Shown piece after piece: positions 41,418 through 62,960 of a stretch of 64,000 bases of DNA. The DNA lies in contig OX638345.1 of assembly GCA_951813535.1 (NCBI GenBank), positions 3,526,608 to 3,590,607 of the forward strand, in the 5' to 3' direction. Position numbers and translations under genes: made by a program. The notes beneath the pieces are model-generated. The model was not told the DNA's origin and searched no databases. It saw nothing but the letters and a program-made list of their open reading frames with translations. The DNA is from an uncultured Dehalococcoidia bacterium (GTDB taxonomy: Bacteria > Chloroflexota > Dehalococcoidia > Lucifugimonadales > UBA3495). Every line of letters begins with the position of its first letter. The stretch's first letter is position 1.

Positions 41418-42404
41418 CTAATTCACCTCCACGTACGACTCTGGCAGGTTGCCGGGTCGGTAGCCGTTATCGGGGTCGGCCATGCGTTGCAATACGCTCA
41501 GGTGTATCTTGGCGCCATCCGAGATGCGGCGGTCCTTCGCACCCAGCCGCCAGATATGCCGGTCTGAGTGTCGGGTCTCTCCTGAATGGTCGGCGTTCAG
41601 AGACTCCCTCCAGTCGGGTCTCAGTTTTAATCCCTTGTCCTCGGCGTGGCGCAGCATCCATTCCAGCGTGATGTCGGAGATGCGCCGGTCGGATTCCTGT
41701 CCTCCCACGTCTCCGTGGCATCCGGGGAACCACACCTGCTCGATGGTCTGGCCTACGGGCAGATCGGTCTCGTCCCACTGCGAGACCCGGAAGTGGTGGC
41801 GTCTTTCGTCCAGTGCCAGCGCCTGGTATCCATGGGCAACGTCGTGGTTCAGACGGTTGTTGGAGAACTGCTTCCGCCTCACCCATCCGATCGAAGCCAC
41901 GGTGTCCCATACGCCGATGAAGTGAGGCTTGCACTGGCGGGAGAAGCTGCGCTTGAACCCGGCGGCGATTTCTTCGTTGCCCACGCGGCGGTAGATGGAG
42001 GTCATGTAGGGGAGCAGGTTCTCGCTCCCCTTGGTGAGCAAGCCGCACTTGTGCAACATGCCGGCCAGTACCCGAACGGTGTGAGCGCCTCGGCTGTACC
42101 CAAACAGGTAGACCTGGTCCCCTGGCTCGTAGCCGGCCATGAGGTATCGGTAGGCTTCCCTGACATTCCCGTTCAGACCCTCGCTGGTTATCCCCATGCC
42201 GGACGCCGACGCGACCAGCATGTCCAGCAAACCGATGGTTCCGTTCCGCAGCGGACTGTGGGTTCCGACGCCCGGGTCGTAGTAGGAGATCTGCTCCGGA
42301 CCATCCGGACCCAGCCGCTCGAACAGGCGCACCACGTTGGTGTTCTTGTCCGGGGCGTCGTACTTGCCCCGAGTGCCGTCGCAGCAAACCACAATTCTTT
42401 TCAT
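41418..42404 (-). CDS. DUF2235 alpha/beta hydrolase (Tle-like)
   Basis: 328 residues. It begins KRIVVCCDGTRGKYDAPDKNTNVVRLFE, the DUF2235 signature. The nucleophile elbow is FGYSRGAH (Ser104), followed by IGVWDTVASIG and a late CHGDVGG with the probable catalytic His. The family includes type VI secretion phospholipase effectors (Tle1) and many uncharacterised cytosolic hydrolases. No secretion genes or signal peptide are present. A two-TM protein gene ends 25 bases upstream, which suggests a two-gene unit. Confidence 0.85.
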   Translation of the reverse strand: MKRIVVCCDGTRGKYDAPDKNTNVVRLFERLGPDGPEQISYYDPGVGTHSPLRNGTIGLLDMLVASASGMGITSEGLNGNVREAYRYLMAGYEPGDQVYLFGYSRGAHTVRVLAGMLHKCGLLTKGSENLLPYMTSIYRRVGNEEIAAGFKRSFSRQCKPHFIGVWDTVASIGWVRRKQFSNNRLNHDVAHGYQALALDERRHHFRVSQWDETDLPVGQTIEQVWFPGCHGDVGGQESDRRISDITLEWMLRHAEDKGLKLRPDWRESLNADHSGETRHSDRHIWRLGAKDRRISDGAKIHLSVLQRMADPDNGYRPGNLPESYVEVN

Positions 42405-42429: not shown

Positions 42430-42657
42430 CTATTTGTCGTTCATCAACGTCGTGCCCAGGCTCGATAGCGCTGTGATCCCCACCGGCAGCAGCCCCACGA
42501 GCGCGCCGGTGACAAATTCCGATATCTCATCAGTTGTGATTGCCAGGTAAACCAGATAGCCGATGCCCCCGTTCAGGATCGCAATCAAGAGCGCGATGAC
42601 CAGCAGGTTCACGCGTACGGGCGTGAACCAACGGCGCTTCCCTGTTTCCTCTGCCAT
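42430..42657 (-). CDS. Two-TM small membrane protein upstream of DUF2235
   Basis: 75 residues from the ATG at 42657, with AGGAGG ten bases before it; a longer frame upstream has no ribosome binding site. Two hydrophobic segments (VNLLVIALLIAILNGGIGYLVYLAI and FVTGALVGLLPVGITAL) with a short acidic turn. The size and topology resemble holins or phage-shock small proteins, but no family is recognised. It is co-directional with and 25 bases from the hydrolase, so it may recruit it to the membrane. Confidence 0.65.
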   Translation of the reverse strand: MAEETGKRRWFTPVRVNLLVIALLIAILNGGIGYLVYLAITTDEISEFVTGALVGLLPVGITALSSLGTTLMNDK

Positions 42658-42894
42658 GACGATGCCTCCTTTTCCGGCGCCGCTCGTCAACCTCGGCAAG
42701 GACGCAGCTGCCCTCACCTGGCCCGAGCAGTCCCCGGTGTTGACGTTCCTGCAGGGTTGACCACGCACCGAGGGGCCGTCGGTGTGGGATGCTAACCCAT
42801 GCGACCGCGACGGCGCCGACCACGCCACCACGAGCCGGCCGAGCGGCGGGTTGGCGAGCTCAAAATAACGGGCACGAGTATAATATCCCCGGGT

Positions 42895-43080
42895 TTATGT
42901 CTCCCACTTGGGCCATGCCGTCCCAGGACGGCGGAGGCCAGCGCCCAGCCCGCCCGATAGTCCGGGGCAAGTCCCAGTTCACGCGGGTTCGCATCTCCCG
43001 TTCTATGGAAACGCCCGGTTGACGGACCACACACTTGCCGGCACGGTTGAGGCCAGACCCGTAATTGGTGAACACAACAG
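42895..43080 (-). pseudogene. Second ASCH-domain remnant
   Basis: The fragment AGKCVVRQPGVSIEREMRTRV resembles AGRRVVRQPGAQIERELRDRL of the ASCH remnant at 28945-29400. After a frame change it continues as an equivalent of AGAVLATA...GMAQVGDI. It lies head-to-head with the STAND gene and ends just before that gene's start. It is useful for placing the STAND start at 43136 rather than further upstream. Confidence 0.45.
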
Positions 43081-43135: not shown

Positions 43136-46100
43136 ATGCCTTTGCCCGGTGGAGCCAGTGATAAATCTGGCAATCGATACGAGCTTCTCTGGACTGTCGT
43201 CAACATGGCGAGGGTTTTGGGTGGAGAAGCCGCATCGATTTCTCTCGAGCCCGTCGGTGACGATGGTCAAGGGGCGGAGTTCACCGTCACAGGGCCGGCG
43301 GCGATCAAATACCACCAGGTGAAGCGCCAGCGAACCGGCCGCGGAGTTTGGTCCTTGACGGCATTGCAGTCCGAGGGGGTGCTGGGTAGCTTCTGCCAGA
43401 AATTGGACGTCGCGACCTCAGAAACCGTGTTCGTGTCTACGCATGCTGCTCATCCGCTCGACGAGCTCACTGATCGGGCTCGATCTGCGTCTTCGTGGAA
43501 AGAGTTCGAGTTCGGTTTTTTGGCTTCCGCTAAATGGTCTGCGGATTTCAATGACCTGCACCAACGTTGGGGGATGGCCAGCAAAGAAGATTCGTATGAG
43601 CGCCTGAAGAGGGTTCACGTCGAGACCATCAGCGAGAGAGCACTTCTCGAACTGGCTCACGCCAAGCTGAGCATGCTGCTAGACGGCGACCCAGCCAATG
43701 CGACGGACGTCTTGGCTCAATTCGCGCTGAACCAGATTCATCAAACATTGACTGCGGATGACATCTGGCAGCACCTTCATCAGCGGAATTTCCACCGGCA
43801 GACGTGGGCCCATGATGATCAGGTGGCCAACACGATTGCGGAGGTAAACCGGACCTACATGGCGGGCATGCAACATCGGGGCATTGGCGGAGACAGCATT
43901 CCTCGTAACGAGACAGACCAATTGTTGGGGTATTTCAAGGAGGAAGGTACACGGAAGGTCGCACTGGTCACTGGTACAGCAGGGGTAGGGAAGACATCCG
44001 TCATCGCCCAAGTTTTGGAAGATGCGGAGACCATGGAACTGCCGATGCTAACCCTACGGGTCGACCGCTTGGAACCGGCCGACCTACCTGAAGCGGTGGG
44101 CAAAAATATGGGACTACCAGCGTCCCCGGTACGAACCCTTGCGGCGGTGGCACAAGGCCAGGGATGTCTCTTGGTAATCGACCAGCTCGACGCCGTCAGC
44201 ATGGCATCTGGGCGGAACCCCCAGTTCTTCGACTGCATCATTGCAATGCTCGAGGAAGCTCGCCAACATCCCAACATGAGGGTGCTCAGCGCCTGTCGCA
44301 AGTTCGACGTTGACAACGACAACAGGCTCCGCGATCTGGTCGGTGACAACGGGATCGCCCAGGAATTTCGGGTCGAATCGTTCGACACTGAGACTGTGCG
44401 TTCCCTGTTGGCTCGTCTGGGAATGGATCCGGACCAGTTCAGCGCCAAGCAAATCGCCCTCCTCACGCTCCCATTGCATATGCACCTTTTGTCGGAGGTG
44501 GCCAGAGGCGGCGCAGTCGATACCAGCGTATTGCAGACCACCAAGGACCTGTACGACGCGTTCTGGCGCTACAAACGGCAGGCTCTCCAATCCCGAGGAG
44601 TGTCTCCGAGTCAAATGCGCGAAGTAGTCGACTTGGTGGTCAATCAGATGACCGACCGCGAGTTGCTCTTCGTTCCTGAATCCCTGCTGGATGACCACGC
44701 AGACGTTATGTCAGCGTTGGCATCGGAGAACATCTTGGTGCGCGAAGGGTCGCGGGTCTCATTTTTCCACGAAAGCTTCCTGGATTACGCCTTTGCTAGG
44801 CGGATGGAAGCTACCGGCGACGACCTGGCGACGTACATCCTGGCCCGAGACCAGAGCCTCTTTGTGCGTTCCCAAGTCAGGCAAGTGCTTTTGCACCGAC
44901 GCGATGACGATCCCGGGAGTGCTCTGCGCGACGTCGACGCCGTTCTCAACGACGGCGGCATTCGGCCGCACCTCAAGGCCATCGTGATATCGCTGTTGGG
45001 AGCCTTGGACGACCCAACCGAGGCAGAATGGCGCCTTCTGGAACCCTCGTTGGCGTCAGAGTTGTTCGATCACGTGCTGCGTTCAATTCATGGTTCCGCA
45101 AGCTGGTTTGACCTACTGGACACCATCGGTGTATTCGACCTCTGGTTGAATGGAACCGATGAGACTTTGGTCAATCGGGCGATTTGGCTGATGCGCGGCT
45201 GTATGCGCGACCGGCTGGATCGGGTGGCGCAATTGCTTGCTCCTTTCCTGAGCACGTCAGCATCGTGGGATAGACGCTTGGTATCCACGGTATTATCCGC
45301 AGACTTGGAAACGAGCCGGGAGATGTTTGACCTCTGCTTGGCGTTGGTCAACTCCGGAGCAGCTGATGATGCTCTCGTGGGCCGCAACGGCTCCTCGCGA
45401 CTCTGGCATACCGCGCACACGCTGGCTGACAATAACGCGGAGTGGGCTTGCCAACTGATCGCTGCCTGCTGCGACCGATTGTCCGCTCTGGCCTCTATCG
45501 TGGGATACGGAAATCCGTTCGAAATGAGTATCGGTCCGCACGGTAGCGACGGGCTGGCCGTGAAGCAGGCCGCAGACAGTGCACCCCGGGAGTTCGTAGA
45601 CCTGCTGCTACCCTTTGTTCTGCGCGTGCTGAATGGCAGTGTTGCCCAGGATGACGACCCACCCTGGTCTGATCCGGTCTGGCACCCGGAGCTCTACGCC
45701 AACGGACATGCCTTCAAGGATAATTTCCTCCTGGCGATGGAATCAGCCATATGCTGGCTCGCAAAGAACGATACCCACGCGTTCAGCCAGCTAGCTACGC
45801 AGTTGGGAACGCAGAACTTTCAGACAATCCATCTCCTGCTGGCGCGAGGGTACCAAGCCAATGGAGCAGTGTTCGCCGACGAAGCCACCGATTACGTTGC
45901 AGATGCACTCATCAAGTTCAGCGGACGCTTCCCTGGAAGTGCCAGATGGGCGGTCGCTCAGTTGATCCAAATTTCGACAACCCACTGCTCTGACGGAAGT
46001 TTGGCTCCGCTGGAACGGGCGATACTTGATCATTACACTCCACTGGAGATGACTCCAACGGGACGCCGGCGCTTGGGACACTCGCAGTTCGTAATGCTCA

Positions 46101-47587
46101 GTGCCGTCGATGAAACCCGACTATCGCATCCAGCCCTGCTCAGGCTCGGCGAATTGCGTCGCAAGTTTCCGGATCCGGGTGAACCCGGACCCAGCATCTT
46201 CACACTCGAGAGCGTGGAATCCCCTATCCCCGAGGCTTCCGCCCGTCAAATGAGCGATGACAATTGGTTGTCTGCGATGGAACGTCATAGCGTCGAAGAC
46301 TCGCCCAGCAGTGTTGATTTCTGGATAGGCGGCGCCGTTGAGTTGTCACACGTCCTGGAAGCTCTAACCAAAGAAAATCCCGAGCGCTTCGCGAGCTTCG
46401 TTCACCGCATGTCAGACGAGATCAATCCGGCCTATTTCGAAGCCATTTTGCGGGGAGTGACTGCTTCTGATCTCAGCATCGACCAAATCGTACGGGTCTG
46501 TATGCGATGCCATCGGCTGCCGGGCCGGCCTTTGGGGCGTTGGGTAACCAGGCCGCTGGTCCACTTTCCAGACGGCGTTTTACCCAATGAAGCATTGGAG
46601 ATGACGGCCTGGTACGCAACCCAGGATCCGGACCCTCATAAAGGTTCCACGGATTACCAGGGGGACCTGATGACCGCGGGAATTAACTGCGTCAGAGGGA
46701 CAGCTGCGGACTCCATCGCGAGGTTCATTTTCCAGGATAGTCGCTACCTCGAGTTTTTCAAACCCTTTCTGGAAACCATGGTCCACGACCCGTCACCCGC
46801 GGTCCGGACCGTGGTGGCGTACGCCCTGCTCGCTACGTTGAGATCCGACCGCGATTTCGGAGTAGCCCGATTCGTGGAACTCTGCAGTGAAGACGAGGTT
46901 CTGAGCACCCCCTTCGTAGAAGAATTCCTAAAGTACGGGGTCCAAACCCACTTCGTTGAGTTGCAACCCATTCTCTCGCGTATGTTGGCGTCCGTTGACG
47001 ATGATGTGGCGACAGCTGGGGCACGTCAATCCTGTTTGGCCTCGCTGACCATGGAGGCGGCACTCTCGTTGGCTGAGCAGTGTGCTGACGGTTCCCAACC
47101 GCTCAGATTGGGCGCCGCGGAGGTTTACGCCGCCAATCTAAAAGCCAGCGCCCTGCGTGCGGAATGCGAGGCCATGCTCGCTAAGTTGTTTGACGACCCT
47201 GAACAAAATGTCAGGGAAGCAGCAGCTTTATGCTTTCGCCGTTTCAGCGGGCGCGATTTGCTGGAATACGTCGATCTGGCATATCGTTATATCGAGAGTG
47301 CCGCGTTCACCACCCAGGTTAATCCTCTCATCATGGCGCTGGACGAGACCACCGCCGCTGTCCCTGAGTTGATCGTGTCAGCCTGCGAGCGCTACTTTGA
47401 CCTCGCCGCCGATGATATGCCCAACATGAACGTGGTCGACACTGGATCCGTGGCTAATCTGGTGGTTCGGGCTTACAGTCAGACCTCAGACCGCCAGGTT
47501 ACAACCCGATGTCTCGACCTGATCGACCGTATGCATCTGCTGGGATTATACGGCTTGGACAGGGTCATGGCGGACATCGATCGTTAG
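43136..47587 (+). CDS. Avs-like STAND NTPase with N-terminal Cap4-like nuclease domain
   Basis: 1483 residues from the ATG at 43136 (MPLPGGASDKSGNRYE, the usual start of this group). Residues 1-130 are a PD-(D/E)XK nuclease-like domain of the Cap4/DUF4297 type (GNRYELLW, GAEF, KYHQVKRQ with Lys63). A STAND/NACHT-like ATPase follows: Walker A GTAGVGKT (280-287), Walker B CLLVIDQLD (344-352), and a sensor region LSACRKFD. From about 600 to the end there are only helical repeats (HEAT/ARM-like), probably the target-sensing part. This layout is that of antiviral STAND NTPases, which detect a phage protein and then degrade DNA. It stands alone and intact near a DISARM operon. Other members of the STAND class work in signalling, so antiviral function is inferred. 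Confidence 0.8.
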   Translation: MPLPGGASDKSGNRYELLWTVVNMARVLGGEAASISLEPVGDDGQGAEFTVTGPAAIKYHQVKRQRTGRGVWSLTALQSEGVLGSFCQKLDVATSETVFVSTHAAHPLDELTDRARSASSWKEFEFGFLASAKWSADFNDLHQRWGMASKEDSYERLKRVHVETISERALLELAHAKLSMLLDGDPANATDVLAQFALNQIHQTLTADDIWQHLHQRNFHRQTWAHDDQVANTIAEVNRTYMAGMQHRGIGGDSIPRNETDQLLGYFKEEGTRKVALVTGTAGVGKTSVIAQVLEDAETMELPMLTLRVDRLEPADLPEAVGKNMGLPASPVRTLAAVAQGQGCLLVIDQLDAVSMASGRNPQFFDCIIAMLEEARQHPNMRVLSACRKFDVDNDNRLRDLVGDNGIAQEFRVESFDTETVRSLLARLGMDPDQFSAKQIALLTLPLHMHLLSEVARGGAVDTSVLQTTKDLYDAFWRYKRQALQSRGVSPSQMREVVDLVVNQMTDRELLFVPESLLDDHADVMSALASENILVREGSRVSFFHESFLDYAFARRMEATGDDLATYILARDQSLFVRSQVRQVLLHRRDDDPGSALRDVDAVLNDGGIRPHLKAIVISLLGALDDPTEAEWRLLEPSLASELFDHVLRSIHGSASWFDLLDTIGVFDLWLNGTDETLVNRAIWLMRGCMRDRLDRVAQLLAPFLSTSASWDRRLVSTVLSADLETSREMFDLCLALVNSGAADDALVGRNGSSRLWHTAHTLADNNAEWACQLIAACCDRLSALASIVGYGNPFEMSIGPHGSDGLAVKQAADSAPREFVDLLLPFVLRVLNGSVAQDDDPPWSDPVWHPELYANGHAFKDNFLLAMESAICWLAKNDTHAFSQLATQLGTQNFQTIHLLLARGYQANGAVFADEATDYVADALIKFSGRFPGSARWAVAQLIQISTTHCSDGSLAPLERAILDHYTPLEMTPTGRRRLGHSQFVMLSAVDETRLSHPALLRLGELRRKFPDPGEPGPSIFTLESVESPIPEASARQMSDDNWLSAMERHSVEDSPSSVDFWIGGAVELSHVLEALTKENPERFASFVHRMSDEINPAYFEAILRGVTASDLSIDQIVRVCMRCHRLPGRPLGRWVTRPLVHFPDGVLPNEALEMTAWYATQDPDPHKGSTDYQGDLMTAGINCVRGTAADSIARFIFQDSRYLEFFKPFLETMVHDPSPAVRTVVAYALLATLRSDRDFGVARFVELCSEDEVLSTPFVEEFLKYGVQTHFVELQPILSRMLASVDDDVATAGARQSCLASLTMEAALSLAEQCADGSQPLRLGAAEVYAANLKASALRAECEAMLAKLFDDPEQNVREAAALCFRRFSGRDLLEYVDLAYRYIESAAFTTQVNPLIMALDETTAAVPELIVSACERYFDLAADDMPNMNVVDTGSVANLVVRAYSQTSDRQVTTRCLDLIDRMHLLGLYGLDRVMADIDR

Positions 47588-48298: not shown

Positions 48299-49150
48299 AT
48301 GGCCACCGCCGCCGACCTGCAGATCGTCCCCCGCCAGCCCACGTCCCTGCCGGCCCTGCGCGCTGCCGACCAGGGCGTGGCCTCCGCCCTGGAGTCCGTT
48401 CTCTCCGACAACACCCAGCGCGTTTACGCCGCCCAGTGGCGCATCTTCACCAACTGGTGCGGCGAGATGGGCCTCCGCCCCCTGCCGGCCGATCCCCTCA
48501 CCGTGGCCCGTTACCTGGCTGCCCGCGCCGGTTCCGGCGCCAGCATCGCAACGCTGCGGCTGGCCACGTCGGCCATTTCAAAAGCTCATGAGTGGGCCAA
48601 GCTGGAGTCCCCCTGCCGGGACCCGGGCGTGCGCGCCTCCCTGAAGGGATGGGGAAGACTTCTCTCGAAACCCCAGCGGCAAGCCGGGGCCCTCACCGCC
48701 GATGTGCTCGCCGTGATCCGCCTCACCGCCGTCCAGCCCCGCCGGCGGGGCCGGGGGATGGAGACGCCGGAACAGGCTGCAGAAAGGGGGAGGTTCGACG
48801 TGGCCCTGGTGGCGGTATTGTCCGATGCGGGGCTCAGGCGCAGCGAAGCGGCCGTCCTCACCTGGGGAGACGTGCAGCGCTGGGACGACGGAAGCGGCCG
48901 TATCACCGTGGTCCGCTCCAAGACCGACGCCCTGGCCCAGGGCGCGGTGGTGGCCATCACCCCCGCCGCCATGAAAGCTTTGGATGCCATCCGGCCGGAG
49001 GGCGCTGTTGGCGAGGTGAAGGTGTTCGGGCTGTCGGAGTCGCAGATCGCCCGGCGGGTGAAGGTAATCGCCAAGTCCGCCGGTCTTGCCGACTGGGAGA
49101 GTTTCAGCGGGCACAGCGGGCGGGTGGGCCTGGCCCGGGGAGAGCGAGAA
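48299..49150 (+). pseudogene. Tyrosine recombinase lacking its C-terminus
   Basis: An N-terminal core-binding SAM-like domain (SDNTQRVYAAQWRIFTNWCGEMG) and catalytic domain start (DAGLRRSEAAVLTWGDV, Arg I) are intact, as is FSGHSGRVGLAR with the His-x-x-Arg pair. The sequence then enters an IS5-type transposase remnant on the opposite strand. The last helix with the nucleophilic Tyr is missing; the frame runs on to a stop at 49273 with foreign residues. The enzyme must be inactive. Its family resembles integrases of small mobile elements. A dif-like palindrome lies just upstream. Confidence 0.8.
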
Positions 49151-49603
49151 CGTTATGCCGGTTCGAGCATGTGCGGCAACCATATGAATCTTGGTGGTCC
49201 AGCCGCCCCGGGACTTTCCGATAGACTGGGGGCCGTTTTTTTAGCGCACCCGTGCCGTCGGGGTGGACCTTGACGATGGTGCTGTCCATCGCTACCACTT
49301 CGAGTTTGATGCGCACGATCTGTTCCCGCTGGAGGTGTGCAAACACCCGGTCGAGCACCCCATTCTTCGACCAGCGATTCATCCGTGTGTAGACGGTATG
49401 CCAGTTGCCAAATCGGGGCGGCAACCCCCGCCACTTGCAGCCCTGCTCGGCGACATACGGGATCGCGTTGAGCACTTGCAAGTTCGACAGTTTGACGTTG
49501 CCGCGCTGAACGGGCAGGACCGATGCGATGCGTTCGTACTGAGCTTCCGTAATCTCCATGCGGGCATGACAACATTTCAGCCTTGGTAGTATGAACAGGC
49601 CCT
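49130..49603 (-). pseudogene. IS5-family transposase, N-terminal half
   Basis: From the ATG at 49559: MEITEAQYERIASVLP, LQVLNAIPYVAEQGCKWRGLPPRFGNWHTVYTRMNRWS, and the first DDE Asp in VAMDSTIVKVHPDG. At ALKK a run of seven A bases is followed by a frame change; in another frame the sequence continues KNGPQSIGKSRGGWTTKIHMVAA. The C-terminal half is gone where it meets the integrase at about 49140. The terminal inverted repeat, ending GTATGAACAGGCCC, is at 49587-49603. Some IS5 members use programmed frameshifting at such A runs, so this may not be a lesion; the truncation is. Confidence 0.75.
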
Positions 49604-49655: not shown

Positions 49656-50456
49656 CTATTTGGTTAGCGGCAGTCTCTCAAGGTACCCATCCCGGATCAG
49701 CGAATCGAAATGCTCCTCGATCTGACTGGCAATCTCCGGGGTTCTCACGAGCAGTCCCAATTCCATGTTTCGCTCCTGGGCTGCCTCGGTAAAATTTGCG
49801 GAAGTAACCAAAGCTCGATTACCATCGATTACGACGCATTTGCTGTGTAAGGCACTACGGCCGGCACCGTGGTCGGTCAAGGAGCGTGGATCGAAATATA
49901 CCCGGGGCAAGCGTTGACCTGGCCACTCATGCTCAACGAAATTTCGAGCGAATCGGCCGGCGATTTGGCGGTCAATCGAGGTGCTGCCTGGGACCCGTCG
50001 AACGTCCAAACAGAGGGTCACCTCCAATCCATCCTCGGAATCAAGGCGCTCCGCCAACGTTCGAAACACTGAACGCCCCTGATGAACGGCGAACCCCACA
50101 GCCAGAATCCGCGATTCGGCTTCGGTGAACAACTGCCGCATCACCACGCCGGTCTCACGCGCAGTCGACGTCGCATCGGGCCCGCTGACAACGACATCGA
50201 TGATCTTAGACAAGTCGAGATCGGACGCTTTGCCAGCAGCAAATGCCCTCAGTATCACGGCAATTTGTGCGGGCCTTTCGTTCTTGCTGTCCAGATCACT
50301 CAGGAACGACAACAAGGGACTGACGTGGACTCGGGGTACGTGGCCCTGCAAACCCAGCGCGGTGAACGGGGGAGCAACCAGTCCTGTTTCGACTAGGTTG
50401 GCCAACCTGGTCAAGCTCGCCACGTCTAGGGCGTCCAGCACGTGGAATGCGATCAT
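49656..50456 (-). CDS. drmC: DISARM protein DrmC, phospholipase D-like nuclease
   Basis: 266 residues. The single HKD motif is LHSKCVVIDGNRALVTSANF near residue 205, followed by NMELGLLV, the standard end of the PLD fold. DrmC is the last gene of DISARM operons and is a PLD-superfamily nuclease reported to be dispensable in some tests. Its start overlaps the drmB stop (ATGA). The region to the IS5 remnant downstream (49604-49655) shows no clear terminator. Confidence 0.9.
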   Translation of the reverse strand: MIAFHVLDALDVASLTRLANLVETGLVAPPFTALGLQGHVPRVHVSPLLSFLSDLDSKNERPAQIAVILRAFAAGKASDLDLSKIIDVVVSGPDATSTARETGVVMRQLFTEAESRILAVGFAVHQGRSVFRTLAERLDSEDGLEVTLCLDVRRVPGSTSIDRQIAGRFARNFVEHEWPGQRLPRVYFDPRSLTDHGAGRSALHSKCVVIDGNRALVTSANFTEAAQERNMELGLLVRTPEIASQIEEHFDSLIRDGYLERLPLTK

Positions 50457-52261
50457 GGATCCAAGGGGGTTGTGTCAAAAAACGCTGCACCCGGAACGCT
50501 TACTGTCGGGACCACCAGAGCACGGTCTAAGAAATCATTACGCTGTTCGCAACTGGTCTCAGAGATCAATAGGCAACCGTGACAAGCCGCGCCATGCAGT
50601 GGCCGTCCTTCGAAGGAAGCTTCCGGGATGTGTTCCGCGCACACTGGATCATTGGAACACAGGAGATTGTCCAAACAAGCTCGAGCTAGGTGCTCGGGAA
50701 AACGGCGGCCAGCTTCTACCAATCCCCCCAGCGTTCCCTCCGAATCGGAAGAACCGGTGTAAATGAGGACTCCATAACTGTCGACCCCCGCATAAACCCT
50801 CTCACGCAGCGAACTCGCTGGATATCCGCAATCTAGCGATATGGTTGTCATCAACATGTGGGCCAACGAATGCAACATTACGTATGGCAGTCTTGGGAAG
50901 TTGTCTTCTGTACGCCGACGCTCCCTAGCCCATAACCGATATGCAGAATCAAGAGCTTGCCCCCGGATCTGCACCTCGGGGCGTGCTAACCAATCTTCGA
51001 TGGCCTGGGTTTTGAATGACGCAAATATTCCCTCACCGCGATTTTCGATGGTTGGCAACCAGGTGATGGTTTCAGCCAACGACGCACGTGCGACATCGAG
51101 GTCGAGTTCACCGTCAATTCCAGGGTTTATCGATTCCAGCCGCGTGAAACCTAGCAAAGACGCCACTTCTCGCAACCGGTGGACCAGCATCAGATGTTGC
51201 ACTGAGTCTAGAAGTGGGTTATCACCTTGTTCCCAGGCGTTGCGGGGTAGGGTCTCGCCATAGAACTTCGATCCCGACAGGTCTAGGCCAATTTGAGGGT
51301 CCCCTTTGTTTAGAATTTGGAACTCGGCGACTTTGACCGGAACCTCGTCGTCCTCGCCACCTCCTTTCTGGCGGAAATATTCTGCGATTATTTCCGCATC
51401 GTCGATTCCATCGAACGGCGCGTTCAACTCGGCCGACATTCGGAAATTGGCCAACGCTCCCACGTCATCCAAGGTTTTTAACCGGTCGTAGTTGGCCGTC
51501 ACTTTGGACGCCAGTCCAGCGTCGAATTCGGGCAGCGAGATAACATTCATCATTTGTGGGAAGTAGGCGTTACTGGCGGTGCGTACCAGCAGCCGATACG
51601 GTTCGTCGCATTCCTCCGACGCGTACTGACCGATCCACGGGCGTCTGCCCATGCACTGCCCGAGCGCTCCCATTCCGGGGCGGAAGGCGTCCAGCAGCGA
51701 CCTTTGCTCGCCGCAATCGCACACTCCGTAGCAGTCCGAGATGTCACCGCTGGTGCCCCGTTCCTCTAGCCATAGCGGACGCTCGCAAGGATTACCGCCG
51801 CGGTGAACGAACACGCGCCAGTTCAAGTCGTCGATGTGGCCGCGGCGGCAGCCGCACACGAAGCGAACGGGAACCACCGGTTGACGCTTCCGATCTTCGT
51901 CCACGAAACGCAATCTGTCCAAGTGAGCCCACCTAACCAATCTCCGGCGTCGCCATTGCTGGTTTTGCCCGGACGGTTGGGCATCTTTGACTATGAACCA
52001 GGTAGGGAAGATACGAGCTCCAACCGGGGCCCGTTGATCTGTGCCCTCTTCATGCTGAGGCGGCGTGTACAACTCCAGGGACGGAACATCCAGGAGCCGT
52101 TGCAGCTTGGAAATAAGCCTGGGCTCGTCAATTTTCTCTCGCCGAAGATGAGCCCAATCCTCCAGACTGGACACTATGACCGAGTAGTCCGGCAAGTCGA
52201 TCATCGCGCCAGGGCCGTAGGTAGTAATCAGCTGGCTTTGTCTTATGAAATTATCAGGCAT
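50453..52261 (-). CDS. drmB: DISARM protein DrmB (DUF1998)
   Basis: 602 residues. It starts IRQSQLITTYGPGAMIDLPDYSVIV, the invariant N-terminus of DrmB. Several cysteine clusters point to bound zinc: FVCGCRRGHID, CYGVCDCGEQ, and at the C-terminus CLDNLLCSNDPVCAEH, CHGCLLISETSCEQRNDFLDR. The DUF1998 region at 430-590 (LPYVMLHSLAHMLMTTIS and IYTGSSDSEGTLGG) is typical. DrmB forms a complex with DrmA that scans incoming DNA and in known systems is blocked by a trigger loop until it meets a 5' overhang. Starts eight bases after the drmA stop. Confidence 0.93.
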   Translation of the reverse strand: MPDNFIRQSQLITTYGPGAMIDLPDYSVIVSSLEDWAHLRREKIDEPRLISKLQRLLDVPSLELYTPPQHEEGTDQRAPVGARIFPTWFIVKDAQPSGQNQQWRRRRLVRWAHLDRLRFVDEDRKRQPVVPVRFVCGCRRGHIDDLNWRVFVHRGGNPCERPLWLEERGTSGDISDCYGVCDCGEQRSLLDAFRPGMGALGQCMGRRPWIGQYASEECDEPYRLLVRTASNAYFPQMMNVISLPEFDAGLASKVTANYDRLKTLDDVGALANFRMSAELNAPFDGIDDAEIIAEYFRQKGGGEDDEVPVKVAEFQILNKGDPQIGLDLSGSKFYGETLPRNAWEQGDNPLLDSVQHLMLVHRLREVASLLGFTRLESINPGIDGELDLDVARASLAETITWLPTIENRGEGIFASFKTQAIEDWLARPEVQIRGQALDSAYRLWARERRRTEDNFPRLPYVMLHSLAHMLMTTISLDCGYPASSLRERVYAGVDSYGVLIYTGSSDSEGTLGGLVEAGRRFPEHLARACLDNLLCSNDPVCAEHIPEASFEGRPLHGAACHGCLLISETSCEQRNDFLDRALVVPTVSVPGAAFFDTTPLDP

Positions 52262-52269
52262 AATATTCG

Positions 52270-55200
52270 CTAGTTGAGATCTTGCCCTTCCGGCGTTTTG
52301 ATTGCGAGAAGCACATTTGGCTCAACGTCCCGCAAGGACCGGGGCGCGCGGAAGCGCAGTTGGGTGGGGGTCAGCGTGTTACGATCTGGATCTATCATTT
52401 CACGCAACAACGGTGTCGATACGCCGGCATCACGGCGGGCGTAACCGAAGGCGATACCGTCCTGTCCAGCCTCGTGGGCCAAATGCGCCCAGTCGTCGAT
52501 AAGACTCTGTACTCGGAGCCGAACCAGCTGCCCTAAACCGGGCGGCGCGAACTCGGCGTGAGTCCCTGCTCTATCGCTGATAGCGTCGGCTATCTGCTTG
52601 GTTTCCGAACCGTGACTCTCCACCTGCCTCGCCGACAGGGTCGGCGTGAGATCTTCTATGCCCAAGCGAACCAGCGCCACGGTGATCGCCGGCAAAGCCC
52701 GATCCATCGCACCTGAGGAAAACGGCGTGACGCTGGTCGCCTCCACCCCACGGTAGAATGACTCGTGGTAATTGGCGTAGCGTTCGTAGTGGGAACGGTC
52801 CCGCGGCTTGTGGATGTTCAGCAGAGTTACCACTAGCCCCGGTCTTTGAGGATGCCGTCCGACCCGGCTGGTGGCCTGGATGTACTCCGATGTCGATTTG
52901 GGTTGTCCGGAAACCAGCATAAGGCCCAGGCGCGTGATGTCCAGCCCCACTGAGATCATGTTGGTAGCCAAGGCCACATCAACCTTTTCCTTGGCGGTAA
53001 AGTCGAGGGCGAGCTTTCGCTTGGCATCCGCCACTTTGGCGGTATCCACTCGTGAGGTCAATTCCACCGGCTCGAAGGCGATGTGGCGGTCGTCGAACAA
53101 ACCGTCGGCTTCCCCGACCCGCTTGCGCTCGGAATAGGTGAGGAGCCTGGAGTTGATTTCGTCCTCCACGATGCGGCGGGCGCTGCCCAGTTCGCGCAGG
53201 GCGTTGAAATAGACCACCGCGGTCATGTAAGGGTCGGCCGGATTTACGGTGCCGGATCCACCGGCAGCGTTCCAAGCGGCCTGGGCCCCGCTCATCAGGG
53301 TAGTCATGGAGCGCAGGAAAATGACTTTGGGTCCCCGGCCCTGCGCCGCCACGCCCACGTAGGCGCGTGCCGAGTCCGGTTCGTCTTCTATTTGTTTGGC
53401 AAAAAAGGAGTCCCGACGGTCCACGCCCGGGGCCGGAAAGATCACAGCCGTATGACGGTTGAACAGCGCGCGGATCTGTTTGGAGGCCAATCTCACCGTC
53501 GCGGTGGATGCGATCACCTTGGGGCGCACTACTTGCCCGTCGACCTGGCGCCGGCAGAGATGGTCAATGGCAGTTTCATAAATGCCGGCCATGGAGCCCA
53601 GTGGCCCGGAGATGAGGTGCAGCTCATCCTGGATGATCAGGTCTGGAGGCCTCGGGTTGGACGGATCTCCCCCGCGGAAGAACCTGGCCGTCTCGCCGCT
53701 CCACGGGAGAGCCGCAAACTTGTCGGCGGTGGCGATCATGAACGCCGGCAGGCGCCGGTAAATGGGTTCGTCCACAGCCACGATGGGCAGGTGCCGCTTG
53801 CGCCTGGAAAAGTCGCAGTGGCGCGACGCACAGCTGACCCACAGATCGGTGGGTTCGTTCGTGTTCGGCTCCAACTGGAATGAGTTGCCGCTGAACCGCT
53901 CGCCGCACCAGGGACACTCTTCCAACGGCAATGGCTGTGGCCGGGAAGTGTCCTGCGCGTAACGCAACGTCCTGACCCGAGCCGAGTTGCCGCTGCGGTC
54001 TCCCTGGCGACCCATGTAGTTGGGGGTGGCAGCACGACCAACCCAAAGGCCAATTTCGAAGGACCATTCCCCCAAGGCAACCGGATCTTGCTCCCGTTCC
54101 AGCTCGAGGGCGCAGATCATGGCGGCGGCACGGCCCAGCTGATCCAGCGTCAGCAGGCGCAGGGTGTAGCGCATCAAAACCGATAGGCCCCGGTAAACCG
54201 GATCAGGGTTGCGCAGACGCCGCAACACCAGCGTGAAAGCCGCCAACCCCAGGTAGGCTTCCGTTTTACCGCCGCCGGTGGGGAAGAACAGCAGGTCGAC
54301 GATCTCCCGCTCGAAATGCGTCGGCTCGGCGATGCTCCGCAGGTTCATCAGGATGTAGGCCAACTGGAATGGGCGCCATTCCGGCGGATCGACCTCATCA
54401 GGGCCCACGTTATTCCCCAACGCACGACGACGTCGGCCAGCGGCCGCCATGGCCCGGTTGGCGACCCGGAAGGCTTCCAGCACGTCGGGATCGGATAGGA
54501 GATCGATGCCGGCCTGAATGCGATTGGCTACGCCCGTGGCCCGGCTGACCAGCAGGCTCGCTACTTCCTGGCGGCGGCCGGTGAGTCCCTCAGAAAACGT
54601 GCCCTGCCCGTCGATCCAGGTTCGATATAGCTGTACCAGAGGGTCGAGGAGCAGTTTGGCAGCAGCGCCGTCGGCGACCGCGCCCAGCGTCTCCATGCGG
54701 AACTCAACCTGGTCTATCGGCGCCGACACCGTCCGATCCACCGACGTCCGGGGCATCCACTCGGTGCTGACCCGGCAGCATTCGCCGTCGTCCACGTGAG
54801 GGGAGGTGGACACGTTGTGGCCCACCGCGTACTCCACCACGTCGCCGAAGTGCAGGTCGGCCAGTCGTTCGTCCCAATCCTCGCTGTCCAGGCCGCGCAG
54901 GTTGGCCCGGGCGATGAGGGGCTGGTCGGCTTCCACCGTTATCTCCACCTGGAAAGCGTAGGCTTTGTCCTGCAGGTTGTCGTCGGCAGGTTCTCGCCGG
55001 TTGACCACGAATACGGACACCGCCCTACCTGCCTGGGAGCCATACTGGGCTGGGACGTTCGTTGCCCTCGCTAGGCAGACCACTTGCATTCCGCCGCTGC
55101 CTTGGATGGGATAACGCGCCGGTTTGGTCGAATCCAGGATGGATAGGTCGATGGAAACCGAACCGTGCATCGGGGTGCGCCGCCAAGGTCCGAAGCGGAG

Positions 55201-55668
55201 TCCGGTGTTGTCGTCGCCGATTGCCTCGGCGACTTCGAGACTTGCACCAGCGTCGACCGCTTCGTGATCCGCCTCGGCGCTCCCTTCGGGCGCGTAGTCG
55301 CCCCAGGCCAACGACACATCCAGCGTCTTGGTTTCCTGGGTGACCCGGATGCTCATGCCGATGGACGACGGGAAGAAGTTCCGCTTGGCGCTGCCCCGGT
55401 CCGGCGTGCCCCCGTCGTCGCTGCCGTGGAAAGGACCGTCGGGCTGGTCGAATTCTTCTTCGGCGTCCTGCGCACGCTGGGACTCCGGCGCATTCGACGG
55501 CACCAGGAACCCGGTCAGATACCAACGGGACGGGGCGTGGGGCAGCAGTTCGTAGGCCAGCTCCGCATCGTCGGGCCGGGGGCCGATGAGGTCCAGGCGC
55601 AGCGCGTGGGTGAGGTAGTCCCGCACCGAGGCGCTATCAGTTATCTGTCCTGCCGAGATTTGGGCCAT
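52270..55668 (-). CDS. drmA: DISARM helicase DrmA
   Basis: 1132 residues. An N-terminal domain of about 440 residues precedes the SF2 helicase core: Walker A FFPTGGGKTEAY (461-472), DELH box (681-684, DLIIQDELHL), motif III VIASTATVR, and C-lobe ATNMISVGLDITRLGLMLV with QATSRVGR. A zinc-finger-like insertion (CPWCGE...SCASRHC, 585-618) sits between Walker A and DELH. DrmA with DrmB is the core of all DISARM classes; it translocates on foreign DNA. The start is five bases from the drmMI stop. Confidence 0.95.
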   Translation of the reverse strand: MAQISAGQITDSASVRDYLTHALRLDLIGPRPDDAELAYELLPHAPSRWYLTGFLVPSNAPESQRAQDAEEEFDQPDGPFHGSDDGGTPDRGSAKRNFFPSSIGMSIRVTQETKTLDVSLAWGDYAPEGSAEADHEAVDAGASLEVAEAIGDDNTGLRFGPWRRTPMHGSVSIDLSILDSTKPARYPIQGSGGMQVVCLARATNVPAQYGSQAGRAVSVFVVNRREPADDNLQDKAYAFQVEITVEADQPLIARANLRGLDSEDWDERLADLHFGDVVEYAVGHNVSTSPHVDDGECCRVSTEWMPRTSVDRTVSAPIDQVEFRMETLGAVADGAAAKLLLDPLVQLYRTWIDGQGTFSEGLTGRRQEVASLLVSRATGVANRIQAGIDLLSDPDVLEAFRVANRAMAAAGRRRRALGNNVGPDEVDPPEWRPFQLAYILMNLRSIAEPTHFEREIVDLLFFPTGGGKTEAYLGLAAFTLVLRRLRNPDPVYRGLSVLMRYTLRLLTLDQLGRAAAMICALELEREQDPVALGEWSFEIGLWVGRAATPNYMGRQGDRSGNSARVRTLRYAQDTSRPQPLPLEECPWCGERFSGNSFQLEPNTNEPTDLWVSCASRHCDFSRRKRHLPIVAVDEPIYRRLPAFMIATADKFAALPWSGETARFFRGGDPSNPRPPDLIIQDELHLISGPLGSMAGIYETAIDHLCRRQVDGQVVRPKVIASTATVRLASKQIRALFNRHTAVIFPAPGVDRRDSFFAKQIEDEPDSARAYVGVAAQGRGPKVIFLRSMTTLMSGAQAAWNAAGGSGTVNPADPYMTAVVYFNALRELGSARRIVEDEINSRLLTYSERKRVGEADGLFDDRHIAFEPVELTSRVDTAKVADAKRKLALDFTAKEKVDVALATNMISVGLDITRLGLMLVSGQPKSTSEYIQATSRVGRHPQRPGLVVTLLNIHKPRDRSHYERYANYHESFYRGVEATSVTPFSSGAMDRALPAITVALVRLGIEDLTPTLSARQVESHGSETKQIADAISDRAGTHAEFAPPGLGQLVRLRVQSLIDDWAHLAHEAGQDGIAFGYARRDAGVSTPLLREMIDPDRNTLTPTQLRFRAPRSLRDVEPNVLLAIKTPEGQDLN

Positions 55669-55672
55669 TGGG

Positions 55673-58600
55673 TTAGACCTTCAACGTTTCTTGGATTAAT
55701 TTGGCGATGCGTTCTCTCTCGGCGCGTTCCTGCTCGGCCCGTTCACCGTTCAGGGACAGCAGGCGGGCCAGCACCATATCCCGCACTTCGTCGGGCCAAC
55801 GGTAGCGCCAAGGCTTTTTCCTTCTGCGATATTCTTCCTCGTCGATCTCGAAATCCAGCAGGAATTCGCAATCGGTGGCGATGTCCGTCCAGCCGTAGGC
55901 GTCGAGGACCGCCCGGTCCATTTTCTCACGAAGTTCCCGCAGGCGCAGTATGTCAGGGTCGCGTTCATCTGGATCGTGGAACCGGTTGTAGGTCTTGGTC
56001 ATCCCCTCGTCATTGCGGATCATCAGCGCGGCCCGGAAGGTGTAGTACTCCTTTCCCGCCGCCTCCAGGGTTGCATCCTTGTCCCAATCTACCGGGAACG
56101 GGAATGTCTCGAAGCAATCAATGGTGGCATACATGAACCGATCTTCGAGGGACGATCCGAAGAACCGCGCCCAAACCTCATGCACCGTGGATTGCAACAT
56201 AGCGAAATTAGAGTCGCTAGAATCGGCGACGATCACCAATCGTTCGGAATAAACCATGCCGGGTGGCAGAAAAGTGAAGGCTATATATTGGGAAACCCGG
56301 GAGATGGCCAGCACGCGATCAAACCCAGATGTCGCCTCGGTTAACCCTGAGCTCTTTTCCGCGTATTGCCACCAATTATCCTGCCGAGTCTTACGGTTTT
56401 GACGATCGCGCTCGGGTTTGACTTTATCTTCAACAATTGATATCAAATCCGGCCAACGGGCCCGGCAATATTCTTCGCCCTTAGCCCCGAAGTTTATGAC
56501 GAACCGATGGTGCGCGTGATCAGGCCTGTTGTTCAACTCCTCCCCGCCGATGTAAGGGAATATCACCTCCCGGTTCTGAGGGTCCTTTTCGATTAGGGCG
56601 TCCATAACCGAGATGGACGTTGCCACGCCCTTGCTGTCCGTGTCGTCGAAGGTGAACCCCATGCCCAGCACGATGCTGCCTTGGAAGCTCTTCCCATCGT
56701 TGGCGTGCAGCCTCGTTGGGTCGTCGTGGGCGCCGGCGTGGAAGAGGAAGGCCGTGATGGTATCCACTGGTTTGTCATCCAGCACCCGGGGGGCCGTCAA
56801 TTCGGCCTTGGTGAAGTGGACTACGCTGACCACCACTGCCGCTTCGCCGGGCCACTGGATGCGACGTTGGACACGGTAGATTGAGCCGCCGTTCTTGCAG
56901 ATCCAGCGCAGACCGGTGGATCGGGTGTCGCCCTGGCCGATGGTGTTGGTGGCAATCAGCCCCACCGTGCCGCCGTCCCGGATCAGATCAAAACCCCGTC
57001 GGAAAAAGTGCGCCACCAGATCAGCGTTGCCGTGGCTCTGCGGGTGGATCTCTTTCAGCCAGTCCGGGTAACCGTCGACGTTGGACGCGGCGACGGAGTT
57101 CTTACCGGCAAAGGGCGGGTTGCCCACGATGGCGTCGAAGCCGGAGTTCTCCCGCTCAAACACCTCTGGGAACTCGATACTCCAGTGGAAGGGGGCCAGG
57201 CCCAACGATTCCCCTTCCTCGAGCAACGTCTCCACCGCGTCGCCGTTGCCCACGATGGACAGGACGTATTCACGCCGTTTGAGTTCCCGGGCTTTGTTCT
57301 TGGCTTGTTTGAAGAACGCCGTCAGTACCAGATCGCCGGTGCGCCGCACGTTGCACAACTCCCGCTGGGAGCTGTCCAGGAGGGTCAGCAATTCCTGCTC
57401 GGTGGCATCGTCACTGTGTTCCCGGATCTCCTCACGAAGCTCCCTCACTCTCTTCATCCGTTGGTTGATCTGAATGGCCTCCACGCCGGGCTGGAATATG
57501 TCCGCGTCGGCCTTCCAGTGAAAGGCCTCGATTTGCCGGCGGGTCAGGCCCACCAGTGAGTCGCCGTGGCGCAGGGTGTGGTCCACGAAGGTGAACTCGT
57601 GGTCCCGGGCCAGGGTGGATAGCCACAACGATAGCCTGGCGAGGTCGATGGCCATGGGATTCTTGTCCACCCCGTAGAGGCATCGCTGGGTCACCAGGCG
57701 GCGGGCGTGGAGGAAGAGGTCTTCGTCAGCAGGTAGGTCGGTGGGAGCGCCGTGGTAGCTCCAGGATTCCACCAACCTCTCGGCAAGCTGCCGGCTTGTC
57801 TCCACCAGAAACGCGCCCGAGCCGGTGGCAGGATCCAGGATTTTGAGGTCGAGGATCTGCTCAGGCAGAGGATTGGGTCCCAATCGCTCGAATATGGGCC
57901 GCAGCGCCTCAGTGACGATGGGCTCGGTGAGTGAGCGGGGTGTGTAGTGGCTGCCGGAGCGTCGGCGTTCGTCGGTGGGTTGCAGCACCGGCGTTCCCGC
58001 CGGCAGGATGGTGGGGGTGGCGTCCCGGTCCACGTTGCGGTCCAGGGCGACCACGATGTCCTCGGCGAAGGCCGAGTCGCGCAGGTCGTTGGCAGCAGCG
58101 CCGGTGAGCCTACGGTCGGTGGCGACCTGTAGCTCCCGGGCCCGCCGGCTGCCATCCTCCGCCAGCATGACGTCCAGGTCGATGACGACGGCCGCGCCGG
58201 TTCGTTTCGGTGAGCGCACCGCGATGGAACGGCCCGTGGTCAACTCCACGCGGAACCCCATGATGGCTTCGTACACCGACCCGATCTGCTCCACGTCCAG
58301 GGTTCGGTATGACAGCCGCTCGCCGTCCAACACAATCAGGTTTTGCAGTACGTTCCAAACGGTGGAATCGGGCACCAGGGGGATATCGACCTGGCCGTCC
58401 TCGGTCCGGCCCTCCAGGAAGGGGAACCGCTCCGGATCGAACAGGCGACCCTTGCGGGCGACGAAGGTCAGGTCATCGTGTCCGCCGCCGCCGTGGATCA
58501 AGCGGAACAGGGACAGCAGTTGGGCCCAAGCGCCAAAGCGCTGGTCCATGGTGTCGGGCCAGGCCGCGGCGTCATCACGAAGTTTGGCGAACAAACCGCT

Positions 58601-59542
58601 CAGCGAGTAATGCTGATGGTATACCGGGTGGTCGGACATCAACCCCCGGTCCTCGGCATACAGGATGAAGACCATCCGCATTAGGGCGGTGATAAGTCCG
58701 CTGTAGAGTTCCTGGGGTTGTTCGCGGGCCAGGTCGGCTAACTTTCCATCTCCGCCCCGCGCGTCGGCGGCCACGAAACCTTGCAGGAGCTGGTAGAGGG
58801 CGGCCAGGACCTGCTGGGACAGGCGGGTGGAAACCTCTGCCTGAGCCTCACGGCTCTTTCTGAGCAGGGTGGGGAGGGCACGATCTGCCGGGCCGCTGAA
58901 CAGAGCGTACTCGGACAGCAGCATCTGAAAGGCTGCCAGGATGGGGCGCCCAGCCGGCAGCGCCATGTCGGAAAAGTCGAAGGAGATGTGGCCCGATGAT
59001 TCCCCGGGTGGCGCATAGATCAGCCGGATACACCGATCATTGCAAAGCAGGCCGATGGGGATGCCGGTTTCTCGCAACAGGCGCTCAAACCGGCTGTGCA
59101 GCGAGGCGTTCCACCCATCCTCGTCGGGCGGTTTGTCCAGATCGCTTCCATCATCTTCAACCCGTATCAACATCATCCAGGGCGGGCCCGACGTTACCTG
59201 CGACGGCACGGCCCAGGTCGCGGACAAAACCACCTGCAGCTCGGGTAACGCTCTTTCCAGCTCATCCCGATGCTCATCGGCGTCGACCAGGTCACCAGTC
59301 TCCCACCCCAACCAATCCAGGAAGATGCGTTTCAGATCGGGAGCGCGATGGCGCATGGTGGCGCCGCTGCCGTTGACCTCCAAGAGCGCGGTGAACTCTC
59401 GCTGCCGGGGAACAATATTGCGATCCGGCACGACCTGGGCCCCCACCATAACAGTGGGGGCCACGACCAAGCCCACCGGCTGGACGAACCCCAGCCACTC
59501 CTGGTGGGCGAATATGATGCTCTGTCTTGCTCGATCCGGCAT
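55673..59542 (-). CDS. drmMI: DISARM class 1 adenine methyltransferase DrmMI
   Basis: 1289 residues. A long N-terminal region resembles the PglX/Eco57I-type start. The N6-adenine methyltransferase domain has motif I LDPATGSGAF (569-578) and motif IV GNPPF (807-811); a target-recognition-like region fills 830-1150. The C-terminal tail (ERAEQERAERERIAKL) is a short coiled coil. DrmMI modifies host DNA so the system spares it and marks class 1 DISARM. It begins three bases after the drmD stop. Size is normal for this family. Confidence 0.93.
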   Translation of the reverse strand: MPDRARQSIIFAHQEWLGFVQPVGLVVAPTVMVGAQVVPDRNIVPRQREFTALLEVNGSGATMRHRAPDLKRIFLDWLGWETGDLVDADEHRDELERALPELQVVLSATWAVPSQVTSGPPWMMLIRVEDDGSDLDKPPDEDGWNASLHSRFERLLRETGIPIGLLCNDRCIRLIYAPPGESSGHISFDFSDMALPAGRPILAAFQMLLSEYALFSGPADRALPTLLRKSREAQAEVSTRLSQQVLAALYQLLQGFVAADARGGDGKLADLAREQPQELYSGLITALMRMVFILYAEDRGLMSDHPVYHQHYSLSGLFAKLRDDAAAWPDTMDQRFGAWAQLLSLFRLIHGGGGHDDLTFVARKGRLFDPERFPFLEGRTEDGQVDIPLVPDSTVWNVLQNLIVLDGERLSYRTLDVEQIGSVYEAIMGFRVELTTGRSIAVRSPKRTGAAVVIDLDVMLAEDGSRRARELQVATDRRLTGAAANDLRDSAFAEDIVVALDRNVDRDATPTILPAGTPVLQPTDERRRSGSHYTPRSLTEPIVTEALRPIFERLGPNPLPEQILDLKILDPATGSGAFLVETSRQLAERLVESWSYHGAPTDLPADEDLFLHARRLVTQRCLYGVDKNPMAIDLARLSLWLSTLARDHEFTFVDHTLRHGDSLVGLTRRQIEAFHWKADADIFQPGVEAIQINQRMKRVRELREEIREHSDDATEQELLTLLDSSQRELCNVRRTGDLVLTAFFKQAKNKARELKRREYVLSIVGNGDAVETLLEEGESLGLAPFHWSIEFPEVFERENSGFDAIVGNPPFAGKNSVAASNVDGYPDWLKEIHPQSHGNADLVAHFFRRGFDLIRDGGTVGLIATNTIGQGDTRSTGLRWICKNGGSIYRVQRRIQWPGEAAVVVSVVHFTKAELTAPRVLDDKPVDTITAFLFHAGAHDDPTRLHANDGKSFQGSIVLGMGFTFDDTDSKGVATSISVMDALIEKDPQNREVIFPYIGGEELNNRPDHAHHRFVINFGAKGEEYCRARWPDLISIVEDKVKPERDRQNRKTRQDNWWQYAEKSSGLTEATSGFDRVLAISRVSQYIAFTFLPPGMVYSERLVIVADSSDSNFAMLQSTVHEVWARFFGSSLEDRFMYATIDCFETFPFPVDWDKDATLEAAGKEYYTFRAALMIRNDEGMTKTYNRFHDPDERDPDILRLRELREKMDRAVLDAYGWTDIATDCEFLLDFEIDEEEYRRRKKPWRYRWPDEVRDMVLARLLSLNGERAEQERAERERIAKLIQETLKV

Positions 59543-59545
59543 GAG

Positions 59546-62860: not shown

Positions 62861-62960
62861 TCGGTGGTAACGATATGTGCGTGCAAGGAGTTCAATAGGC
62901 GCCCGGACCGAATATTTGATACGGCAGGGCAATCACCAGGGTGCGATGTTCTGTTGGCCG

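Follow-up and report, generated by a model that had tools for sequence, protein, structure and literature searches.

We have analysed a 64,000-nucleotide stretch of the genome of an uncultured Dehalococcoidia bacterium (contig OX638345.1; hereafter the window) and find that it carries an intact gene whose single protein product joins an N-terminal nuclease fold, a central STAND NTPase and a C-terminal helical solenoid (Table 1). We favor the possibility, and consider it probable, that this is a one-protein antiviral STAND receptor that is triggered by a phage protein and has the nuclease as its effector. Our reasoning for this is that the predicted folds, the near-invariant catalytic and Walker residues, the purifying selection on the gene, its patchy spread without a partner, the defence genes around it and the exchange or fast evolution of the middle of its sensor all point in this direction. 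The nuclease-STAND architecture is already known from the Avs proteins; the window protein belongs to a widespread single-gene clade with a HEAT/ARM sensor, separate from the Avs2 and Avs4 families with which it was compared, whose members are probable antiphage receptors. Avs-type immunity would thereby be extended to a large cross-phylum clade that has a different sensor fold and that current defence databases score weakly.

The start of the gene can be fixed by comparison. The longest in-frame open reading frame (ORF) would begin at a TTG codon at 42908. In two congeneric orthologues (L024, which is the same as L004, and L025, the same as L005) there is an in-frame stop 8 codons 5' of the conserved ATG that opens MPLPGG and, since the orthologous frame is closed just upstream, we regard the ATG at 43136 as the secure start. 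These same-genus orthologues are 74-75% identical to the window protein across 1483/1483 residues, and the ratio of nonsynonymous to synonymous substitution rates (dN/dS) is approximately 0.1-0.35 in every segment where it was computable, which argues that the gene is under purifying selection. Given the full-length orthologues, the low dN/dS and the existence of full-length relatives in many phyla, the ORF is not a chance one. The first-pass annotation, which was made from the letters of the window, had described an intact ORF with this start and had read it as a nuclease, STAND and repeat protein with the three-part layout of antiviral STAND proteins; the orthologues agree with the start, the domain scans and predicted models agree with the layout, and the protein is confirmed as real.

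An AlphaFold (AF2) model of residues 1-640 had a mean pLDDT (predicted local distance difference test score) of 90.7, with most of the nuclease part above 90. The elements follow in the order helix 7-28, strands 34-37, 49-52 and 57-63, a helix, strand 95-101 and helix 106-117, and it is this helix-three strands-helix-strand-helix topology that identifies a PD-(D/E)XK core. When the nuclease part alone was aligned with VIA, the matches (over residues 6-222) were HamA 8zue (Z 14.6, root-mean-square deviation (rmsd) 3.7 A, 189 residues), LmuA 9nxx (Z 14.5, rmsd 3.4 A, 199 residues) and Cap4 7yia (Z 14.1, rmsd 3.6 A, 208 residues), and the Pfam family Cap4_nuclease (PF14130) was matched in 10/60 homologues with a best E of 9.5e-8. 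Column counts were taken over 82 aligned homologues, 80 of which are ungapped at the nuclease positions. The candidate active site consists of E38 (79/80), an acidic residue at position 48 (80/80, D in 7 and E in the rest) and K63 (78/80), and the last of these falls within the motif H60-(Q/S)61-x-K63, with H60 in 73, Q61 in 63 and S61 in 17 of the 82 aligned sequences. As modelled, the domain has the PD-(D/E)XK fold of a Cap4-type nuclease and is predicted to cut DNA. The Cap4-like nuclease that had been proposed for the N terminus is thus borne out by fold matches at Z 14-15 and by the conservation of E38, E/D48 and K63, and the KYHQVK motif noted at the same time was located at residues 58-63.

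The NTPase region carries a Walker A motif (GTAGVGKT, 280-287), a Walker B-like motif (IDQLDA, 348-353), CRxFD (387-391) and FFHESFLDY (543-551), within which G283, G285, K286, D349, Q350, D352, R388, D391, F543 and H545 are identical in 82/82 homologues. Pfam scans returned nSTAND1, NACHT and AAA matches. In VIA alignments the NACHT cores of the animal receptors of the NLRP type and of NOD2 matched at Z 20-24 over approximately 380 residues (NLRP9 at Z 23.8 over 391 residues, NLRP3 at about Z 22), which places the region within the STAND/NACHT group; the animal proteins differ in effector and sensor and are only about 10-14% identical. VIA alignments to Avs4 and Avs3 were weaker (Z 16-17, with a large rmsd), and the large rmsd fits a difference in domain orientation. 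The best Foldseek match for residues 1-640 was portal-bound Avs4 (8dgf, E 2.6e-13). Effector, central STAND and C-terminal repeat sensor in one protein is the broad Avs-like layout, as seen in both the domain scans and the models. A housekeeping signalling STAND protein lacking a nuclease fold would have counted against the earlier proposal, and this is not what we found.

The remainder of the protein was modelled by AF2 as nearly all helix (mean pLDDT 88.4 for residues 641-1483), and a domain scan detected C-terminal HEAT repeats (PF02985, E 1.9e-8). The model matches the folds of importins, CAND1, SF3B1 and, at Z 16.5 and rmsd 9.1 A, the A subunit of PP2A. Since the aligner warns that repeat proteins often score around Z 13 with one another, we claim only the general fold class. 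The sensors of Avs1-4, those of Avs3 and Avs4 included, are TPR-type repeats, whereas the model and the scaffold matches make the solenoid of the window protein HEAT/ARM, and the suggestion that its repeat region is unlike that of Avs1-4 therefore stands. The first-pass annotation had counted 880 residues of helical repeats; the helical part does begin near residue 560-600, with a minor correction in that the part modelled as one solenoid is residues 641-1483.

Within the solenoid, a block of some 400 residues has a history of its own. Comparing the window protein, L024, L025 and a paralogue from the same genome, we found that the window protein most resembles L024 over residues 1-560 (identity 0.89), whereas over residues 701-1100 the same two proteins are the least alike pair of the four (0.54) and L025 and the paralogue are the most alike (0.79). 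Divergence at fourfold silent sites between the window gene and L024 rises from 0.26 in residues 1-700 to 0.54 in residues 701-1100 (Fisher p 3e-5), and between the window gene and L025 from 0.43 to 0.60 (p 0.013). Because silent divergence is raised and the order of relatedness has changed, the sensor middle is best explained as having been replaced by recombination or gene conversion. Codon-level positive selection was not seen (dN/dS being 0.1-0.35), and the signal in these sequences appears to be one of mosaic ancestry, not of positive selection acting on codons. From the sequence comparison we infer that block 701-1100 carries recognition specificity. As the mosaicism among close relatives singles out this 400-residue block as a candidate recognition surface, the trigger can be sought by region swaps and co-expression screens.

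The family is widely but thinly spread. The window genome is a single contig of 4.38 Mb, and the two closest orthologues come from metagenome-assembled genomes labelled Chloroflexi. The gene is present in 2/13 other genomes of the genus, and a match was found in 11/400 genomes of a phylum sample (its own genome included). Genome contigs yielded 175 confirmed related loci when scanned with an alignment, and no relatives when scanned with the plain protein. The 80 loci that were kept fall in Cyanobacteria, Actinomycetota, Planctomycetota, Pseudomonadota, Acidobacteriota, Myxococcota, KSB1 and other phyla, and each of 14 genomes checked has one copy. Plasmids of rhizobia and planctomycetes carry full-length homologues of approximately 25% identity. 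Among 97 loci the only neighbours to recur in more than three were C-terminal halves of the gene where it is split, in keeping with the earlier description of the gene as standing alone. With regard to defence context, ORFs within 5.5 kb of the gene on 14 large contigs were scanned with PADLOC (E <1e-20) alongside control stretches of similar size from the same contigs. The neighbours matched 119 models, among them a CBASS cyclase and each of the three kinds of type I restriction-modification gene, versus 31 in the controls, where the matches were mostly to generic PD-T4-6 kinase models; as these are counts of models and not of genes, the enrichment is a qualitative one.

Two homologues bear on the role of the N terminus. 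In L012 (L012:213-5108) the same STAND and solenoid are preceded by a CHAT protease-type domain (E 1e-21), and in L013 they are preceded by no recognised effector. That these bodies carry other N termini supports the view of the N-terminal domain as an exchangeable effector. Seven further homologues (L033, L043, L044, L068, L088, L011 and L017) are read as two same-strand ORFs with varying split points, which could be either assembly frame errors or real two-gene forms. In Rhodopirellula (L070:2634-7439) a separate P-loop protein of 1601 residues adjoins a family member and is possibly a second STAND receptor in tandem.

A plausible scenario is as follows. In the resting state an ADP-bound STAND core would keep the receptor inactive. 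Upon infection the C-terminal HEAT/ARM solenoid would bind a phage-made protein, most likely through the variable residues 701-1100, whereupon the receptor would open and bind ATP and the STAND cores would oligomerise. The oligomers would bring the N-terminal Cap4-type nucleases together as active dimers, and these, without being strictly specific, would cleave double-stranded DNA and so abort the infection. There is precedent for such steps: Avs tetramers activate their N-terminal nucleases and the nuclease domains of Avs3 dimerise (PMC12198126), and the nucleases of Avs1-4 cleave phage and host DNA once terminase or portal is bound (PMC12931631). By analogy with the Avs and HerA-DUF4297 literature, we infer that the window protein binds a ligand, oligomerises in response, pairs its nuclease domains, degrades DNA and protects against phage. 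More tentatively, the family could be an unclassified antiviral STAND type in which an importin-like HEAT/ARM sensor reads a phage component other than large terminase or portal, and in which relatives retarget by swapping the solenoid middle while keeping the nuclease and STAND parts.

The protein was also set against known systems. Avs2 (PADLOC PDLC02161-02166; model PDLC02166 turned out to be Avs2) is likewise a STAND protein with an N-terminal effector and a C-terminal sensor and occurs in the same genome. The genome's true Avs2 (C1:3400072-3404676) scores 1397 bits with the Avs2 model, at the lower end of the 1397-1620 bits seen for true members, whereas the window protein scores 16 bits (E 5e-4) through its STAND part only. 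With the Avs4 model it scores 9.9 bits (E 0.023) through the Walker region only, against 545 bits for a real member. The best PADLOC match is PDC-M54A (E 3.5e-19, 66 bits), which is similar in layout; the match covers mostly the STAND part, and a real PDC-M54A member (L125) scores 1111 bits and falls in a separate tree group. A literature search found no description of PDC-M54. In a maximum-likelihood tree of STAND cores, built without Avs1, Avs3 and Avs5 and without L012, L013 and L022 (whose P-loop misses the extraction pattern), 25 family members group together with modest support (82/85). The Avs2 STAND clade stands apart (support 100/100, branch 4.8 changes per site), and Avs4 is a single long row of unsure placement. 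Of the earlier idea that this may be a new clade, then, separation from Avs2 is upheld by tree and scores, and separation from Avs4 by scores. EfAvs5 (9jap) is a weaker Foldseek match to residues 1-640; the effector of Avs5 is of SIR2 type, whereas that of the window protein is a nuclease fold.

The nucleases Cap4, LmuA, HamA and DUF4297 differ from the window protein in how they are governed. Cap4, LmuA and HamA are controlled by cyclic nucleotides or by separate proteins that are partner ATPases or helicases. In HerA-DUF4297, too, the nuclease is controlled by a separate partner ATPase protein (PMC12198126), whereas in the window protein the nuclease and its STAND switch form one chain. A closer counterpart is the 1523-residue 'AAA family ATPase' of PDB entries 9n00, 9n01 and 9yix, a distant full-length homologue (family profile E 1.1e-55) that is collinear in two blocks, the nuclease-STAND part (48-658) and a C-terminal one (profile positions 1025-1501). 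It scores only 81 bits to the window protein, where other full-length members of the family reach 340-390 bits, and 9n00 is absent among the 50 fold matches listed for residues 1-640 (library to April 2026). A literature search by entry code 9n00 found no publication; the published function of this protein, if any, may bear directly on the family. With the structure of this distant relative solved, the mechanism can be tested directly.

Alternatively, the trigger could be invading DNA, the solenoid reading nucleic acid or a replication intermediate such that a plasmid or other invader is degraded, in a restriction-like manner, and the host spared. HEAT/ARM solenoids can bind nucleic acid as well as protein. 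The effector belongs to the Cap4/HamA nuclease group and some homologues adjoin restriction-modification systems, both of which would suit such a sensor. However, the nearest solenoid matches are mainly protein-binding scaffolds, the domain scan detected no DNA-binding module, the layout is shared with the Avs receptors, for which the known ligands are proteins of the phage (PMC12931631), and the fast mosaic evolution of the sensor is a better fit to a diversified protein ligand; we regard this explanation as unlikely. We think it slightly less probable again that the protein is a signalling or cell-death STAND answering to a trigger within the host, such as stress, development or kin recognition. 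STAND NTPases are common in large-genome bacteria of multicellular type (Cyanobacteria, Streptomyces), where many of the homologues are found, but a host-internal trigger accords poorly with the conserved catalytic residues of the nuclease, the defence neighbours, the patchiness, the diversifying sensor and the position of the paralogue beside Avs2. It is very unlikely, in our view, that the protein is simply a divergent member of the Avs3 type, in which a Cap4-type nuclease and a STAND core are joined to a terminase sensor. Terminase-bound Avs3 (8dgc) shares the nuclease-STAND-repeat order with the window protein, as does Avs4 8dgf, and its cryo-EM structure aligns over residues 1-628 of the model at Z 16.2, with an rmsd of 15.7 A over 464 residues that reflects a different domain orientation. 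Such a nuclease fold on a STAND core is therefore already known, and the suggestion of the first-pass annotation that the nuclease type is unlike Avs1-4 is not supported. Nevertheless, neither phmmer with the full window protein (E up to 10) nor the family profile (E up to 0.1) found an Avs3 or Avs4 chain, PADLOC reported no Avs1, Avs3 or Avs5 model at E up to 1, and the C-terminal part matches HEAT/ARM scaffolds with no Avs chain among the matches listed.

Several points weigh against our preferred reading, that of an antiviral receptor triggered by a phage protein: (i) scans of phage records and of viral contigs found no copy of the gene, and for that reason the case for mobility rests on the plasmid homologues, the recombinase-like neighbours and the patchiness; (ii) the window protein itself falls below the Pfam reporting limit for PF14130, which only relatives match; (iii) the middle position of the (Q/E)-x-K motif is Q or S and the canonical D/E is absent, although active PD-(D/E)XK nucleases with another residue there also occur; (iv) in the fold search the solenoid model matched no known phage-protein sensor and (v) we found no experiment on the protein or its close family. 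With these points taken into account, we still hold the antiviral reading to be likely.

Table 1. Features of the window, with positions counted from its first nucleotide.
Feature	Position	Strand	Basis
Tle1-like/DUF2235 hydrolase, divergent neighbour	41418..42404	-	PF09994, E 4.8e-73
Small ORF beside hydrolase, looks membrane-anchored	42430-42831	-	sequence
Full-length gene, single-protein STAND receptor (probable), 1483 aa	43136..47587	+	intact ORF
Residues 1-222, Cap4/LmuA/HamA-type PD-(D/E)XK nuclease (predicted)	43136..43801	+	AF2 model, VIA alignment, PF14130 in relatives
Residues 223-640, STAND/NACHT NTPase with winged-helix region	43802..45055	+	VIA, Foldseek, Pfam
Residues 641-1483, HEAT/ARM-type helical solenoid, putative sensor	45056..47584	+	AF2, fold matches, PF02985
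Residues 701-1100, fast-diverging mosaic sensor middle, candidate ligand surface	45236..46435	+	segment identities, silent sites
DISARM drmC	49656-50456	-	PADLOC DrmC, E 1e-69
DISARM drmB	50453-52261	-	PADLOC DrmB, E 1e-75
DISARM drmA	52270-55668	-	PADLOC DrmA, E 1e-264
Large methyltransferase-like ORF, DISARM	55673-59542	-	read from sequence only
SNF2-type helicase-like ORF, DISARM	59546-62932	-	read from sequence only

The gene had been placed 2 kb from a recombinase and DISARM segment, and this is so: drmC lies 2.07 kb further downstream, and between the two a tyrosine-recombinase ORF begins at 48299. The DISARM operon (49656-62932) is apparently complete. On the other side, both the paralogue locus and L024 retain the Tle1-like hydrolase next to the receptor, at a protein identity (93-94%) above that of the receptor itself. 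The hydrolase was considered as a dedicated partner and rejected, being retained only in close relatives and absent beside distant homologues.

The same-genome paralogue (G000:C1:3410438-3425209; L002, L003 and L104) is split into halves that are 77% and 71% identical to the gene and are separated by approximately 10 kb of inserted DNA containing a transposase-like ORF (L104:6520-7551). The true Avs2 is about 6 kb away and an Avs4-like fragment (3397116-3398438) about 12 kb away, and together with the paralogue they form a cluster of STAND defence genes. The tyrosine recombinase of the window is related to an ORF near the genome's Avs2 (L128:15147-15947), from which its C-terminal part departs, and a transposase-like ORF (49104-49559, minus strand) overlaps its end; given this overlap, the recombinase is probably broken. 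The presence of related recombinases at both STAND loci would suggest a common mobile context. Both islands also share a repeat, found at 63003-63958 of the window and, with 86% identity, at L104:210-1165 close to the split paralogue; it is probably part of an insertion sequence.

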